From Rhizobium sp. Q54 (GTDB lineage Bacteria > Pseudomonadota > Alphaproteobacteria > SMXS01), in the NCBI GenBank assembly GCA_945872035.1, contig CAMBYA010000028.1, positions 1 through 13,692 of the forward strand: 13,692 nucleotides of DNA, written 5' to 3'. The first letter of the stretch is position 1, and every line of letters begins with the position of its first letter. The notes beneath the pieces are model-generated. The model was not told where the DNA came from. It saw only the letters and a list, made by a program, of their open reading frames with translations, and did not search any database. A program made the position numbers and the translations under genes. Positions 2 through 5,752 of this stretch are shown one piece after another.

Positions 2-667
2 TACCAGCACCGGGTGCTGTTCTGGGGCATCCTGGGCGTGATCGTCCTGCGGGCGATCATGATCGGCTTTGGCGCCGCGATCGTGTCCGAGTTCTCCTGG
101 GTGCTCTATGTGTTCGCCGCGTTCCTTATCATGACCGGCATCAAAATGCTGGTGTTCGAAGAGAAGCCGCGCTCCATAGCCGACAATCCGCTGCTGAAAA
201 TGTTCCGCAAGCGGTTCAACGTCACCGATGAGCTGCACGGCCAGCGCTTCCTTGTGAAGCAGCCTCATCCGACGACCGGCAAGCTGGTCTGGTTTGCGAC
301 GCCGCTGTTGATGGCGCTGGTTCTGATCGAAATCGCCGACGTCATCTTCGCCGTGGACTCGGTGCCCGCGATCTTCGCCATCACCACGGACCCGTTCATC
401 GTCTACACTTCCAACATCTTCGCCATCCTGGGCCTGCGAGCCTTGTATTTCGCCCTGGCCGCGATCGTTGACCGGTTCCATTACCTGAAGACCGCGTTGG
501 CGGTGCTGCTGATCTTCATCGGCGGCAAGGTTTTCGTCGCCGATCTGATCGGCCTCGAGAAGTTCCCGCCGACCCTGTCCCTGGTCGTCACCCTCCTCAT
601 CCTCGCGTCGGGCGTCGCGTATTCCCTCTGGCGAACGCGCAAGCCCGCCGTCGACCGCCCGGCATGA
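2..667 (+). CDS. terC: TerC-family integral membrane protein (5' end outside window)
   Basis: The reading frame is open from the window edge (base 2), so the start and roughly the first 100 residues of a usual ~320-aa Alx/TerC protein are missing; 221 codons are visible. The visible part has about five hydrophobic segments. It carries the family hallmark at 335-370, encoding ADVIFAVDSVPA, followed by the AIFAI and NIFAILGLRALYF blocks, whose acidic residues lie inside membrane helices. A hydrophilic loop (about 165-290) follows the first visible helices, as in Alx-type members. TerC-family proteins sit in the inner membrane and are linked to Mn2+ export or metal loading and, in ter clusters, to tellurite resistance; which cation is moved here cannot be told from sequence. 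A TerB-like gene follows 133 bases downstream, supporting a ter/metal context. The end is TGA at 665-667. Family call is firm; substrate is inference. Confidence 0.93.
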   Translation, partial: YQHRVLFWGILGVIVLRAIMIGFGAAIVSEFSWVLYVFAAFLIMTGIKMLVFEEKPRSIADNPLLKMFRKRFNVTDELHGQRFLVKQPHPTTGKLVWFATPLLMALVLIEIADVIFAVDSVPAIFAITTDPFIVYTSNIFAILGLRALYFALAAIVDRFHYLKTALAVLLIFIGGKVFVADLIGLEKFPPTLSLVVTLLILASGVAYSLWRTRKPAVDRPA

Positions 668-780: not shown

Positions 781-800
781 TCAAACGGAAAGGGCTGAAC

Positions 801-1268
801 ATGCCATATCGACGCTCACTGGGAAGGTTCTCGAACAGGACCTGGGAAGAGTTCAACGCCGAAGTGCACAGGGCGCGTAGCGAGCACTTGCTGGAAGGGA
901 TCATCGCCGGCTGTGCCATCGTCGCCTATGCCGATGGATGGGCTACCCAGGAGGAGCGAGACCGCATGCTCGGGCTGATCCGCGGCTTCGAGCCCATTGC
1001 CGCATTCGGCCTCGACGATGCATTGGCGACGTTCGAAGCGCTCAGCGACCGCTTCGTCAGCGACCACGAGCGGGCCGAGCGCGAGTCGCTGGAGGCGGTC
1101 GCCAAGCTTCGCGGCGCCCAGCGCTACCCGGCGCTGCTCGTGGAGGCGTGTTGCGCGATCGCGGCCGCGGATGGCGGTTTTGATGCCGAGGAACGCAATG
1201 CGGCCATCCGGATTTGCACTGTGCTCGGGCTCGATCCTGCCCAGTTCAACATAGCGGACGCGCCATGA
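801..1268 (+). CDS. TerB-like (tellurite-resistance/acidic helical) protein
   Basis: A 155-aa soluble protein. The ATG at 801 is preferred because AAAGGG lies 7-12 bases upstream; an in-frame GTG at 675 would add a 42-residue tail of low-complexity, non-conserved sequence. The protein shows the internal two-fold pattern of TerB/DUF533-like domains: AYADGWATQEERDRM (residues 42-56) and AAADGGFDAEERNAAI (121-136). Each is a helix end with an ADG turn and an EE pair that make an acidic, metal-binding-like site. TerB proteins are cytoplasmic or membrane-associated helical bundles that occur with TerC/TerD in metal and tellurite stress clusters; their biochemical action is not settled. Two adjacent cysteines (C117, C118) lie in the second helix. 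Position directly after TerC supports the call and suggests co-transcription. Confidence 0.85.
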   Translation: MPYRRSLGRFSNRTWEEFNAEVHRARSEHLLEGIIAGCAIVAYADGWATQEERDRMLGLIRGFEPIAAFGLDDALATFEALSDRFVSDHERAERESLEAVAKLRGAQRYPALLVEACCAIAAADGGFDAEERNAAIRICTVLGLDPAQFNIADAP

Positions 1269-1338: not shown

Positions 1339-1653
1339 ATGATCAACGAGCTCATTATGTACTTGGTATCGGTTTTCATTATCGAGCCTTTCGATGTGGC
1401 GATGGGTGATGCGCTGCGGGAAGCGCAGGCGCCGGCGGCGGTGGTGGAGCAAGTGAGCGGATGCATCGCCACCGCGCCCGTCGTCCTGGCCGAGAAGGTG
1501 CAGGGCGACTGGGGGTGGGCGATCGGCGCCGCGGTCAAGGTGGCGGTTGGCCTCGATTCGGTCGAGTCTGTGGTGTCCGGCGCGGTCCCCGAGTGCGGCG
1601 CCGCCCTCGCTGCGGTCAAACCCTTTCTGTCGGGAAGCCCCGGCGAGGCATGA
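1339..1653 (+). CDS. Unknown small protein with hydrophobic N-terminus (104 aa)
   Basis: I do not recognise a named family. The start is set by AGGAG six bases upstream. The first ~18 residues (MINELIMYLVSVFIIEPF) are hydrophobic and could be a membrane anchor. The remainder is alanine/valine-rich and moderately acidic, with two cysteines (C42, C86) near the start of the middle part and near the C-terminus that could form a disulfide if exported, and a tryptophan pair W58/W60. The start of the next gene is 19 bases after the stop, so the two probably share a transcript. Reality as a gene is supported by the ribosome-binding site, the tight spacing to the next gene and the GC-rich third codon positions; function is unknown. 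Its place between TerB and the channel genes hints at a membrane or envelope role, which is inference. Confidence 0.7.
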   Translation: MINELIMYLVSVFIIEPFDVAMGDALREAQAPAAVVEQVSGCIATAPVVLAEKVQGDWGWAIGAAVKVAVGLDSVESVVSGAVPECGAALAAVKPFLSGSPGEA

Positions 1654-1672
1654 CCCCGGACAGGTGACCGCA

Positions 1673-2044
1673 ATGCCTCACAGCCAGTTCAGGAAGCCGG
1701 GTCGCGGGCGGCGGGTGCCTGCCGGGGGGCCGTCTCCTCACCGGCAAGTCCGGGAAACCCTGATCCGTGTGGGCCTGCCGCTGCTCGTGGCGCTGTTGGT
1801 CGCCGTATGGCTGCCTTCGCCGCTGTTCCTGCCCGTAATGGAGGTGTTCTCGTTCTATGCGGCGATGGGCATGGCTCTGTCGGCCTTCTGGCGCCGCGAA
1901 GAGGTGGCCGAGGCAGGCCGGTTCAATCGCTGGGACAGCGCCATGATCCTGATGGCGGCAAGCATGACTTTCGCCTTGTTCGTCGACGAAGCGGCTGCCC
2001 TCGCATTCATCGAGAAGTCGATCGATGACTCGCTCGCGCACTAG
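1673..2044 (+). CDS. Unknown small membrane protein overlapping the channel gene (123 aa)
   Basis: No family is recognised. The ATG at 1673 is chosen because GGACAGG lies just upstream (1658-1664) and the preceding frame would overlap the upstream gene by more than 100 bases. The first 28 residues are basic (many Arg, Pro, Gly), then come about three hydrophobic segments: ~33-47, ~51-73 and ~90-106, the last running into an acidic pair D105/E106. The basic N-terminus predicts a cytoplasmic N-terminus by the positive-inside rule. The last 20 bases overlap the start of the BacNav-type channel in another frame, so translation of the two is probably coupled. An accessory or assembly role for the channel is attractive but rests only on this overlap. 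Confidence 0.75.
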   Translation: MPHSQFRKPGRGRRVPAGGPSPHRQVRETLIRVGLPLLVALLVAVWLPSPLFLPVMEVFSFYAAMGMALSAFWRREEVAEAGRFNRWDSAMILMAASMTFALFVDEAAALAFIEKSIDDSLAH

Positions 2045-2840
2045 AGCCGCCCTTCAGCGCTTTATCGAAGCCGGGCCGACCCGGGGCGTGATCATGGCGG
2101 CCATCATCATCAGTTCCGCCGCCCTGGGCCTGGAAACCTGGCCCGTTGCCGCCGAGCGGTTTGGCGGTGTCTTTCGCGCTGTCGACGTGATGGCCGTCAT
2201 GATCTTTACGAGCGAACTCGCCATCAAGCTGTTCGTCTACCGGTGGGCGTTTTTCCGCGATGGCTGGAACGTCTTCGACTTCATCATCGTAAGCCTGTCG
2301 ATTGCGACGCTGGGTTCGGGCACCGGCGTCCTGCGTGCGCTGAGAATTCTCCGCACCCTGCGCCTGCTGTCGCTGGTGCCGCGGATGCGCGTGGTGATCC
2401 AGGCGCTTCTGGGCGCCATTCCGGCAATGGGCGCGGTCTTCTTCCTCATCGCGCTGGTGTTCTACGTCTCTGCGGTCATGACCACGAAGCTCTTCGGCGC
2501 GGCATTTCCCGACTGGTTCGGCTCCATCGGCGCCTCGCTGTATTCGCTGTTTCAGATCATGACGCTGGAAGCCTGGTCCGACGGCATCGTCCGTCCGATC
2601 ATGGAGGTCTATCCGCTCGCCTGGATGTTCTTCATCCCCTTCATCCTGATTACGTCGTTCATCGTCCTGAACCTGTTCATCGCGATCATCGTCAACGCGA
2701 TGCACGGCATCGATCGCGAACAGGCGGTGGCGGACGAGCAGGGATTGTCGCGCCAGATCGCCCTGCTCCGAGAGGAGATCTCGGCCTTGCGTGCCGAACG
2801 GGTGTCGGGGAACGCCACGCCGATCGCCCATTCAACCTGA
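2025..2840 (+). CDS. Bacterial voltage-gated cation channel (BacNav/NaChBac family)
   Basis: A complete 271-aa six-helix channel subunit (NaChBac is 274 aa), expected to form an inner-membrane tetramer. The voltage sensor has E64 in S2, N82/D85 in S3 and an S4 with arginines every third residue: R104, R107, R110, R113, then R120 and R122. S5 covers about 131-155. The pore filter is TLEAWSD (180-186), followed by S6 (about 200-225) with the family NLFIAIIVNAM block. The tail holds a predicted coiled coil (about 234-262, LSRQIALLREEISALRAE), the usual BacNav tetramerisation element. The filter keeps Glu182 and Trp184 but has Ala183 where Na+ channels have Ser and Asp186 where NavAb has Met, so selectivity may be mixed Na+/Ca2+ (inference). 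The start overlaps the preceding membrane-protein gene by 20 bases. A GAGAAG sequence (2012-2017) may serve as ribosome-binding site. Confidence 0.94.
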   Translation: MTRSRTRAALQRFIEAGPTRGVIMAAIIISSAALGLETWPVAAERFGGVFRAVDVMAVMIFTSELAIKLFVYRWAFFRDGWNVFDFIIVSLSIATLGSGTGVLRALRILRTLRLLSLVPRMRVVIQALLGAIPAMGAVFFLIALVFYVSAVMTTKLFGAAFPDWFGSIGASLYSLFQIMTLEAWSDGIVRPIMEVYPLAWMFFIPFILITSFIVLNLFIAIIVNAMHGIDREQAVADEQGLSRQIALLREEISALRAERVSGNATPIAHST

Positions 2841-2866
2841 AACACTGCTCTCGAAAGGCCGGAGTC

Positions 2867-4210
2867 ATGCCAACGACCTCTCAAGCCATCGACACGGGGT
2901 ACCGCCCCGCCCATGCCTGGTATGCGGTGGGCGTGCTGGTCCTTGCCTACACGTTTTCTTTCATCGACAGACAGATACTCGGGCTGCTCGTCACCCCCAT
3001 CAAGCGGGACCTGGGAATCGGCGACTTCGAAGTCGGCTTGCTCGGCGGGTTGGCCTTCGCGTTGTTCTATACGTGTCTCGGCCTTCCGATAGGTCGGCTC
3101 GCGGACCGTCACAACAGGCGCAACATCATCGCCATGGGCATTGCCGTCTGGAGCGTCATGACCGCGGTCTGTGGTCTTGCCAAGACTTTCGGAGGTCTGT
3201 TCCTGGCGCGCATGGGCGTGGGCGTCGGCGAGGCGGCGCTGTCGCCGCCGGCCTATTCGCTGATCGCCGACATGTTTCCGCCCGAAAAGCTTGCCCGCGC
3301 CCTGAGCGTCTACAGCACGGGCATTTTCATCGGCAGCGCGCTGGCCTACATCCTCGGTGCCAGCGTTGTGCAGATGGTCGCCGATGCGCCGCCAATATTG
3401 TTGCCCGTCCTCGGCGAAATTCACGCCTGGCAGCTAACGTTCTTCATCGTCGGGCTGCCCGGACTGCTGGTGGCGCTGCTGATGCTGACGGTGCGCGAAC
3501 CCGCCCGGAAAACCGGCCACGATGCATCGCGCAGCCCCGGGGACACAGTTCCTCTGCGCGAAGTGGTGGCATTCCTTCGGGCCGGGAAGGGAACCTTTGG
3601 GGCCCATTTCGCCGGTTTTTCAATGCTGGCGGTCTTCGGCTACGGCACGGCGATGTGGATACCGGAGTTCATCAACCGGAGCCACGGGTGGGCAATCTAC
3701 GATGCGGGATATGCCTATGGTTTTCTCATTCTGGTGTTCGGCATATCCGGCGTGCTGCTGGGCGGGGTGTTCAGCGACTGGCTACGCCAGAGGGGGCGGA
3801 CCGACGCCTATATGCGGGTGGTCATGCTGGCGGCCTGCGCCATGGCTCCGTGCGCGATCCTCTTTCCGCTGGTCGGGTCCGAGGTGATCATGCTTCTACT
3901 GCTCGCCCTCGTGGTGTTTTTCGGCGCCATGCCCGCGGGTGTGGCCGCTGCGGCGCTCCAGAGCGTCACGCCCAACCACATGCGGGCGCAGGTGTCGGCC
4001 CTGCACCTGTTTTTCGCGAACCTGATCGGCATGGGCGTGGGGCCGGGGTTGGTCGGATTCTTCACCGACTATGTGCTCTTCGATCCGGGGAAGTTGAACA
4101 TCGCGCTGAGCCTGACCGCGATGGCCACCGTTCCTGTCGCGGCGATTATCCTCATGCTGGGCCTCAAGCCGTTCCGCGCGAGCGTTGCGATGGCGAGGGG
4201 CTGGAGTTAG
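2867..4210 (+). CDS. MFS transporter, spinster-like
   Basis: A 447-aa major facilitator of the usual size. The ATG at 2867 follows the channel stop by 26 bases, with AAAGG (2854-2858) upstream; the frame is open much further 5' but that part is a shadow of the channel gene. TM1 carries the spinster-type FIDRQILGLLVTPIKRDL block (D34, R35). Motif A between TM2 and TM3 reads GRLADRHNRRN (76-86), and TM4 has R115 in ARMGVGVGEAAL. A central loop near 210-240 separates the two six-helix halves. A segment between TM5 and TM6 (about 170-188) is longer than in many MFS proteins. Bacterial spinster homologues are proton-coupled exporters or importers of lipids, organic acids or drugs, often unassigned; the substrate here is unknown. 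It may be the last gene of the terC-to-channel run, since 438 bases without an intact gene follow. Confidence 0.9.
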   Translation: MPTTSQAIDTGYRPAHAWYAVGVLVLAYTFSFIDRQILGLLVTPIKRDLGIGDFEVGLLGGLAFALFYTCLGLPIGRLADRHNRRNIIAMGIAVWSVMTAVCGLAKTFGGLFLARMGVGVGEAALSPPAYSLIADMFPPEKLARALSVYSTGIFIGSALAYILGASVVQMVADAPPILLPVLGEIHAWQLTFFIVGLPGLLVALLMLTVREPARKTGHDASRSPGDTVPLREVVAFLRAGKGTFGAHFAGFSMLAVFGYGTAMWIPEFINRSHGWAIYDAGYAYGFLILVFGISGVLLGGVFSDWLRQRGRTDAYMRVVMLAACAMAPCAILFPLVGSEVIMLLLLALVVFFGAMPAGVAAAALQSVTPNHMRAQVSALHLFFANLIGMGVGPGLVGFFTDYVLFDPGKLNIALSLTAMATVPVAAIILMLGLKPFRASVAMARGWS

Positions 4211-4648: not shown

Positions 4649-5752
4649 TTGCCCTACAGGGCCACGTCGGACGCGCTCGACGCGCCCGTAAGCGTCCTGC
4701 TGGTCACGTCCATGGAGACGAAGCGGTGGGTATTGCCCAAGGGCAACCTGGTGAAGGGCCTGTCGGCCCATGCCTCTGCCGCGCACGAGGCCGAGGAGGA
4801 GGCGGGCGTGCTCGGCGCCGCGTGTCCGACGTCCATCGGGTCGTACCGTTACCGCAAGCGGCGCAACAACGGCGCCTCGCTGATGGTGGACGTGGACGTG
4901 TTCCCGATCGCCGTCACCGACGAGCTGGATGAGTGGAAGGAGCAGGACCGCCGCGAGCGACGCTGGTTCTCGCTGGTCGATGCCGCCAACGCCGTCGATG
5001 AGCCCGAGCTCAAGGGCATCATCCGCGGCTTCAGGGCAAATGAAGTCAACCGGGCCTTCAAGGCCGGGCCCCTGGCAAGCTTCAGGGAAATGGGGAGAGG
5101 ATTCCGGTTGTTTCACCGGTTCCAGGCGCTGTTGCCGCGCCAGGGCAACTTCTTCGCGCTTTTCGAGGCCCAAGCCCGGACGCTCAATGCCGGCAGTGAT
5201 GCGCTGGTTCGCTTGTTGCAGGGCGGCCCGGGCATGCAGGACCACATCACCGAGATCATCAGGCGCGAGCACGAGGCCGATGACATCATTCGCGAGGTGA
5301 TGCAGACCGTGCGTCGCACTTTCCTGACGCCGTTCGACCGCAGCGCGATTATCCGCCTGATCAGCGCCATGGACGATGCCATCGACCAGATGCAGCAGAC
5401 CGCCCAGGCGATCAGCCTTTACGAGGTCATGGAATTCGACCAGGAAATGAAGGATATCGCGGCGATCATCGTCGATGCCTCGCGGCTTATCTCCGAGGCG
5501 CTGCCGCTGCTGCGCAAGATCGGCGACAACGGCGTGCGGCTGCACGAGCTGACCGAGCGGCTGGTGAAGATGGAAGGCCACTCCGAGGAGATCCATGCCG
5601 CCGGCCTCAAGGCGCTGTTCAAGGCGCACGGGCAGAGCAATACGCTGCGCTTCATCGTCTCGCGCGAGATCTACAGCCATTTGGAGCGCGTCGTCGACCG
5701 GTTCGAGGACGTGGCGAACGAGATCGATGGGCTTGTGATCGACCACGCCTGA
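4649..5752 (+). CDS. Nudix hydrolase-DUF47 (PhoU-like) fusion protein
   Basis: A 367-aa two-domain protein. Residues ~1-130 are a Nudix domain of the diphosphoinositol-polyphosphatase-like type, with WVLPKG (27-32) and the box tail HEAEEEAGV (46-54). The usual Arg is His46 and the first box Glu is Leu38, but the metal-binding E47, E50 and E51 are kept. Residues ~155-365 are a DUF47/PhoU-like helical bundle with ExxxD-type motifs: E207-D211, D242-D246 and ERVVD near the C-terminus. DUF47 proteins act with Pit phosphate permeases; Nudix enzymes cleave X-linked diphosphates. A role in phosphate control through a phosphorylated nucleotide, inositol pyrophosphate or polyphosphate is inferred. The start is uncertain: TTG 4649 has no ribosome-binding site, and the codons just before it (QQIAAL) look like conserved domain sequence, so an ATT at 4631 behind GGGGG is possible. 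The stop overlaps the Pit remnant (TGATG). Confidence 0.88.
   Translation: MPYRATSDALDAPVSVLLVTSMETKRWVLPKGNLVKGLSAHASAAHEAEEEAGVLGAACPTSIGSYRYRKRRNNGASLMVDVDVFPIAVTDELDEWKEQDRRERRWFSLVDAANAVDEPELKGIIRGFRANEVNRAFKAGPLASFREMGRGFRLFHRFQALLPRQGNFFALFEAQARTLNAGSDALVRLLQGGPGMQDHITEIIRREHEADDIIREVMQTVRRTFLTPFDRSAIIRLISAMDDAIDQMQQTAQAISLYEVMEFDQEMKDIAAIIVDASRLISEALPLLRKIGDNGVRLHELTERLVKMEGHSEEIHAAGLKALFKAHGQSNTLRFIVSREIYSHLERVVDRFEDVANEIDGLVIDHA

Follow-up and report, generated by a model that had tools for sequence, protein, structure and literature searches.

The best-described relatives of the channel treated here are the BacNavs NavMs and NavAb, which carry the selectivity filter TLESWSM, with Ser178 and Met181 of NavAb at filter positions 4 and 7 (PMC12919392). 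In the N49K/T206A background of NavAb, S178A (TLEAWSM) has a PCa/PNa of 0.12 and M181A one of 0.36, the loss of Met181 thus raising the ratio from <0.05, and the double mutant S178A/M181A (TLEAWSA) reaches 0.41 with a PLi/PNa of 1.09 (PMC12919392). S178G gives <0.05, or 0.47 when combined with M181A, and is not Ca2+-selective (PMC12919392). The LESWSD mutant of NavMs has no functional current, nor have four other outer-filter mutants of that channel (PMC4972137).

CavMr (TLEGWVD) has a PCa/PNa of 218, compared with 144 in its D7M mutant, 11.9 in G4S and 7.7 in G4D; Gly4 is the determinant of its Ca2+ selectivity, which requires Val6 as well but can do without Asp7 (PMC7041947). The same source describes NavPp (TLEDWTD) as a Na+ channel with a PCa/PNa of 0.31 and a low-affinity block by Ca2+, recounts the Ca2+-selective aspartate filters, namely TLDDW(S/A)D and the TLEDWSD and TLEDWAD mutants of NavAb and NaChBac, and reports that one filter can behave differently on different backbones. 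Among eukaryotic channels, OsEukCatA1 of a diatom (TLDAWAD) is non-selective and EhEukCatB1 of a coccolithophore (TGESWSE) is Na+-selective with Ser4 and an acidic position 7, and the article in question cautions that selectivity can no longer be read from the charges of a filter (PMC8002053). According to a review, Na+ is favoured when position 4 is a small neutral residue other than Gly, and the outer ring is of little weight (PMC10120453).

The channel and its gene block

Our window, i.e., the whole stretch of 13,692 nucleotides of Rhizobium sp. Q54, an uncultured alphaproteobacterium, that was analysed, opens at the first base of its contig in a draft genome of 2.38 Mb that is 78% complete. 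The following features are relevant to the channel:

14..667, + strand: TerC/Alx-family membrane protein, truncated by the contig start (Pfam PF03741; TIGR03718, 266.9 bits, cut-off 246.4)
795..1268, + strand: TerB-like protein (Pfam PF05099, 65.2 bits)
1339..1653, + strand: 104-residue protein with one hydrophobic N-terminal stretch (hydropathy)
1673..2044, + strand: 123-residue protein, predicted from hydropathy to lie in the membrane; the end of its ORF shares 20 bases with the start of the channel gene
2025..2840, + strand: single-domain six-helix BacNav channel of the NavAb/NavMs type, 271 residues (Pfam, PDB, model)
2334..2363, + strand: part of the S4 voltage sensor, containing the four arginines R104, R107, R110 and R113
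2562..2582, + strand: selectivity filter, TLEAWSD at residues 180-186 when numbering begins with the ATG at 2025 (codons ACG CTG GAA GCC TGG TCC GAC)
2703..2810, + strand: C-terminal helix after S6, the end of model helix 197-262
2867..4210, + strand: MFS transporter, last of a four-gene block (Pfam PF07690, 157.5 bits)

The channel gene is an unbroken reading frame from an ATG at 2025 to a stop at 2840, whose product matches the Pfam Ion_trans model PF00520 at 141.9 bits (cut-off 25) and, among PDB sequences, NavMs (E 1.9e-66) and NavAb (E 1.2e-65); no NCBIfam model matched the protein. An AlphaFold2 model, which as a monomer alone is unable to rank ion selectivity (mean pLDDT 80.9, pTM 0.56), is closest to the NavAb structure 5vb2 and places the filter loop (180-188) between the P1 (168-179) and P2 (189-195) helices. 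The six-transmembrane Ion_trans domain, an arginine-bearing S4 and the pore loop are all present, as in the canonical NavAb-like BacNavs, and R104, R107, R110, R113 and the pore residue E182 are invariant in an 18-sequence alignment. The protein agrees in fold and length with NavMs and NavAb, its best PDB relatives by both sequence and fold, and shares with them the four arginines of S4, the ring of Glu3, the GIVRP motif after the filter and the C-terminal helix, which by analogy with other BacNavs is presumably a tetramerising coiled coil. It differs from them in having Ala4 for Ser and Asp7 for Met, and thus departs from the canonical filter with Ser4 and Met or Ser7. It further differs at Ser30 and Thr95, both shared with two loci of the same genus, L002 (genome G001) and L003 (genome G002); the TLESW rows have Asn at the former site in 86 of 86 cases and Pro at the latter in 85 of 86. 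The dN/dS of the channel gene, 0.21 against L002 and 0.23 against L003, indicates that it is under selection, even if these values are somewhat above those of TerC, TerB and MFS (0.08-0.13). Judged by its sequence, the channel is a canonical BacNav by descent and a filter variant, ordinary except for the filter and a few conserved sites.

CavMr and AnclNav resemble the window channel in Glu3, a small residue at position 4 and Asp at position 7, but have Gly rather than Ala at 4 and Val rather than Ser at 6. The window protein has no Cys and hence lacks the disulphide of the L6 loop extension of CavMr (PMC10120453); moreover, it groups with TLESWSM rows in a tree that does not contain CavMr or NavPp. 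A CavMr-type Ca2+ channel was rejected on these grounds, namely the lack of Gly4, the lack of Cys for a disulphide loop and the grouping with TLESWSM in that tree. OsEukCatA1 has the nearest natural filter found with a measured phenotype, sharing Ala4 and Asp7, but it is a eukaryotic channel with Asp3 and Ala6 in place of Glu3 and Ser6 (PMC8002053). The engineered CavAb (TLDDWSD) shares Ser6 and Asp7 with this natural channel, but has Asp at positions 3, 4 and 7, of which the window channel has only the last, with Glu3 and Ala4 at the others.

The order TerC/Alx, TerB-like, 104-residue protein, 123-residue protein, channel and MFS transporter on one strand is kept in L002 and L003. The 104-residue protein, 89% identical in L002 and 74% in L003, had no NCBIfam match and in Pfam gave only a sub-cut-off hit to PF08046 (E 0.008); the 123-residue protein (89% and 72%, respectively) had no Pfam or NCBIfam match and is possibly an accessory subunit of the channel. 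In another genome of the genus (G004), the last four genes (1339-4210 in the window) are absent: there, about 40 bases after TerC-TerB (L209, 4372-4411), the sequence that follows MFS in L002 and the window sets in. This joining of TerC-TerB to the post-MFS flank indicates that the four genes occur as an all-or-none block. Downstream of MFS, the L003 sequence differs from that of L002 and the window. A further window ORF at 4649-5752 combines an N-terminal NUDIX with a C-terminal PhoU_div/DUF47 domain. As regards a possible flagellar role of the channel, a flagellin N-domain was not found in the organism's own 78% complete genome.

Upstream of TerC, the Rfam terC RNA (RF03067) is found in L002 (2561-2622), L003 (2570-2631) and the G004 locus (2639-2700); the window contig begins inside TerC, so the corresponding region lies beyond it. 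Given its position in the genus, the terC RNA may regulate the gene block to which the channel belongs. TerC/Alx is also seen beside BacNav-like channels in alphaproteobacterial lineages with TLEGWPD and TLESWSV filters (L109 23-1752, L107 1285-2999 and L093 1402-2940; 14-2840 in the window). In the two TLEGWPD genomes among these, TerC directly precedes the channel on the same strand, with a 4-base overlap in L109 and an 8-base gap in L107. A tblastn search over the collected loci recovered TerC in the genus loci, the TLEGWPD genomes G116 and G367 and the TLESWSV genome G015, and found none in the available flanks of three other distinct TLEGWPD channels (G012, G147, G245); a general rule of TerC beside the channel was accordingly rejected. 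The G015 channel (L192, L093), with its TLESWSV filter, is one residue shorter ahead of the P2 helix, and in one tree it clusters with the TerC-linked TLEGWPD channels (91). TerC proteins have been tied to Mn2+ handling (PMC10550928), and a link between TerC and the ion of the channel is speculation.

Rarity of the filter and the possible tie between positions 4 and 7

The earlier note had presented the gene as a BacNav with an unusual filter, TLEAWSD, at residues 180-186, and had proposed an alignment of homologues as a check. The identity is borne out by the Pfam Ion_trans domain, the NavMs and NavAb matches and the fold; the filter is spelled by codons 2562-2582 of an intact ORF; and its unusual nature is evident from the 80 nearest loci, 76 of which read TLESWSM. 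These 80 are the best of 503 confirmed relatives, the other four reading TLESWSN (two, L002 and L004), TLESWST (one) and TLEAWSD (one, L003). A survey of 159 distinct channels found Ala4 and Asp7 together in two, each of them from this genus. A chance reading of the filter was rejected given the unbroken ORF with strong family matches. An assembly or sequencing error is unlikely, as the separately assembled L003 has the identical filter in partly different codons and the dN/dS values are 0.21 and 0.23. Hence, this is a known fold with a new filter variant, and the filter is both real and rare.

The 159 channels with a readable filter come from 204 loci and constitute a non-random sample: it pools the 80 nearest loci, draws from Alphaproteobacteria and channels from a pattern search, the last selected because their position 7 is Asp or Asn, residues in which the sample is therefore enriched. 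Channels were counted as distinct when their last 150 residues differ, so that L002 and L004 count once. Six ORFs whose filter was unread by the pattern were left out (L059, L150, one in L179, L183, L185 and L104), and the TLSSWE rows are possibly in a shifted register. Alignment A1 is without L008 and L010, which have a stop in the translated stretch, and L016, L053, L054 and L055 were dropped alongside. Within this sample TLESWSM accounts for 121 channels and the combination of Ser4 and Met7 for 122, and position 4 is occupied by Ser (130), Gly (21), Asp (5), Ala (2) or Asn (1), both Ala4 channels being the TLEAWSD channels of the window's genus. Among 385 genomes of the class, eight contained the pattern FQ-x-M-TL(D/E)-x-W-x-(D/N), seven with Gly4 and one, the window, with Ala4; a DNA pattern for Ala4 matched a single genome, the window's own, among 299 of the phylum, a denominator that counts genomes with or without a BacNav. 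A search of mainly open-access literature found TLEAWSD, LEAWSD, TLESWSN, LESWSN and TLEAWS in no paper.

An acidic residue at position 7 is present in 19 of the 159 channels, accompanied by Gly4 in 16, Ala4 in two and Asp4 in one. Expressed differently, it occurs in 19 of 29 channels lacking Ser4 versus 0 of 130 with Ser4 in this non-random survey (Fisher p = 1e-17, a value that takes no account of common descent or of the enrichment of the sample in Asp/Asn7). Mapped on the tree, the residue at position 4 requires 12 or more changes, as does the acidic position 7; only four independent pairs fall on well-supported (starred) branches, nearly always going the expected way (sign test p 0.125). 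The tie between the two positions in the sampled prokaryotic channels is therefore suggestive and unproven, and the changes from Ser4 to Ala and from Met7 to Asp may, by their sequence pattern, be one coupled change. As a general law such coupling was rejected: EhEukCatB1 pairs Ser4 with an acid at 7 (PMC8002053), as does CavMr-G4S (TLESWVD), which conducts nonetheless (PMC7041947). In view of these exceptions we retain it as a tendency among the prokaryotic channels sampled, and any rule would belong to NavAb-like backbones. The non-conducting LESWSD mutant of NavMs lends weak support to the coupling, since four other outer-filter mutants also failed.

Origin of the filter within the genus

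The channel is present in three of seven genomes of the genus, with TLEAWSD in two and TLESWSN in one; no second channel match was found in the window's own 78% complete genome. Relative to the window channel, the L002 protein (TLESWSN) is 91% and the L003 protein (TLEAWSD) 81% identical. L004 is 99.8-100% identical to L002 outside a missing stretch of 607 bases and is hence not an independent case. The stretch, corresponding to L002 4686-5292 and missing at about position 1309 of L004, takes with it most of the 123-residue ORF and the first 97 channel residues; this could be a broken copy or a misassembly.

A first tree, built by a quick search from an alignment that retained the filter columns, with SH-aLRT as its sole measure of support and with several long branches flagged in other parts, unites the window, L002, L003 and L004 in one clade (100, starred), joined by the TLESWSM rows L007, L008 and L084 (99, starred); it leaves the branching order within the genus clade open. 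With positions 4 and 7 masked, FastTree again places the genus sequences among TLESWSM rows and pairs the window with the TLESWSN channel (98), the other TLEAWSD channel falling outside, an arrangement in line with the identities of 91% and 81%. CavMr, NavPp and OsEukCatA1 are not among the tree sequences. The nesting of the genus clade within TLESWSM channels indicates that TLEAWSD was derived from a Na+-type filter. From these sequences, two gains of Ala4/Asp7, or one gain with a reversal to Ser4/Asn7, would fit equally well. Asn and Asp are one base apart, as are the position-4 codons TCG (L002) and GCG (L003). A more far-reaching proposal is that within the genus a NavAb-type filter switches between Ser4/Asn7 and Ala4/Asp7 by coupled changes, giving near-isogenic channels (91% identical) that would differ in Na+/Ca2+ selectivity, with Ca2+ permeability re-invented from a sodium-channel pore independently of the CavMr line; we regard this as doubtful.

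Expected permeation and its alternatives

The earlier note had taken Glu3 as a mark of Na+ channels and the outer Asp as a gain of the Ca2+ type. Both points are weak: CavMr has Glu3 too, CavMr-D7M keeps a PCa/PNa of 144 and NavPp prefers Na+ (0.31). An outer Asp is thus neither needed nor sufficient for Ca2+ selectivity, and its sufficiency was rejected on the evidence of the latter two channels. Asp at position 7 alone is said, in work by Yue in 2002, to have raised Ca2+ permeability in NaChBac. The note's statement that CavMr has Gly at position 4 and Asp at position 7 agrees with the published TLEGWVD (PMC7041947). By the published mutants, position 4 would be at least as telling as the outer Asp.

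The note's further suggestion of a mixed or Ca2+-permeable pore is upheld as the best reading by analogy with NavAb TLEAWSA (0.41) and the non-selective OsEukCatA1 (TLDAWAD). From these two analogues we infer, with a probability of roughly one half, a Na+-conducting pore with weakened discrimination between Na+ and Ca2+, i.e., a mixed Na+/Ca2+ pore with a PCa/PNa of roughly 0.3 to 10, through which some calcium probably passes along with sodium. Four subunits would assemble into a pore that opens on depolarisation and has the usual ring of Glu3; the intact voltage-sensor arginines and E182 in the 18-sequence alignment support such a function. Ala4 would remove the Ser hydroxyls and widen the outer mouth, Asp7 would supply a second ring of carboxylates there, and the loss of Met7 would remove a residue that NavAb needs for Ca2+ exclusion. 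The resulting pore would conduct Na+ and Li+ about equally and be neither a strict Na+ channel nor a Ca2+ channel of CavMr grade. Against this, the Ala4 mutants of NavAb still prefer Na+ (PMC12919392), the review ties a small neutral non-Gly position 4 to Na+ (PMC10120453), EhEukCatB1 is Na+-selective with an acidic position 7, and the behaviour of a filter can vary with its backbone.

An unlikely alternative is a native Ca2+-selective channel built on the backbone of NavAb, with Ala4 as the counterpart of CavMr's Gly4 and Asp7 filling the last place of a Ca2+-type filter. The predominance of Gly4, the CavMr arrangement, among channels with an acidic position 7 (16/19) is consistent with it, as are the PCa/PNa of 11.9 kept by the CavMr backbone with Ser4 and Asp7 (G4S) and the conversion of NavAb and NaChBac to Ca2+ selectivity by aspartates (PMC7041947). 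However, even Gly4 does not make NavAb Ca2+-selective, be it alone (S178G, <0.05) or with M181A (0.47; PMC12919392); CavMr requires Gly4 and Val6 and not Asp7 (PMC7041947); and its disulphide loop extension (PMC10120453) is absent from the Cys-less window protein. We accord a similarly low probability to an ordinary Na+-selective BacNav whose filter is tolerated drift, the outer Asp merely raising conductance or divalent block. NavPp (TLEDWTD), a Na+ channel with low-affinity Ca2+ block (PMC7041947), and the Na+-selective EhEukCatB1 (TGESWSE; PMC8002053) provide precedents, Ala4 in NavAb leaves the Na+ preference in place (0.12; PMC12919392), and drift would accord with a dN/dS of 0.21-0.23 versus 0.08-0.13 in TerC, TerB and MFS. 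Yet the residues of the prevalent Ser4 and Met7 pair (122/159) have both changed, and to a small position 4 with an acid at 7 like the Gly4 channels, and the loss of Met181 in NavAb by itself lifts PCa/PNa from <0.05 to 0.36 (PMC12919392).

It is very improbable that the channel conducts poorly or is degenerating and being lost by the genus. Its presence in three of seven genomes, the 607-base gap in L004, though possibly a misassembly, and the absence of current in NavMs LESWSD and four other outer-filter mutants (PMC4972137) point that way; the ORF is, however, open in the window, L002 and L003 with a dN/dS of about 0.2, the arginines of the voltage sensor and E182 of the pore are in place, and the gene block is conserved.

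Returning to the mixed pore, the change from a Na+ to a Ca2+-permeable pore has mostly been studied through engineered mutants, some of which, as in NavMs, do not conduct. The genus supplies natural homologues, 91% and 81% identical to the window channel, with TLESWSN and TLEAWSD filters, and the existence of such natural sister channels with different filters makes a patch-clamp comparison worthwhile. If the tie between positions 4 and 7 is true of NavAb-like channels, it would tell which residue has to yield before an acid can be placed at the outer mouth.
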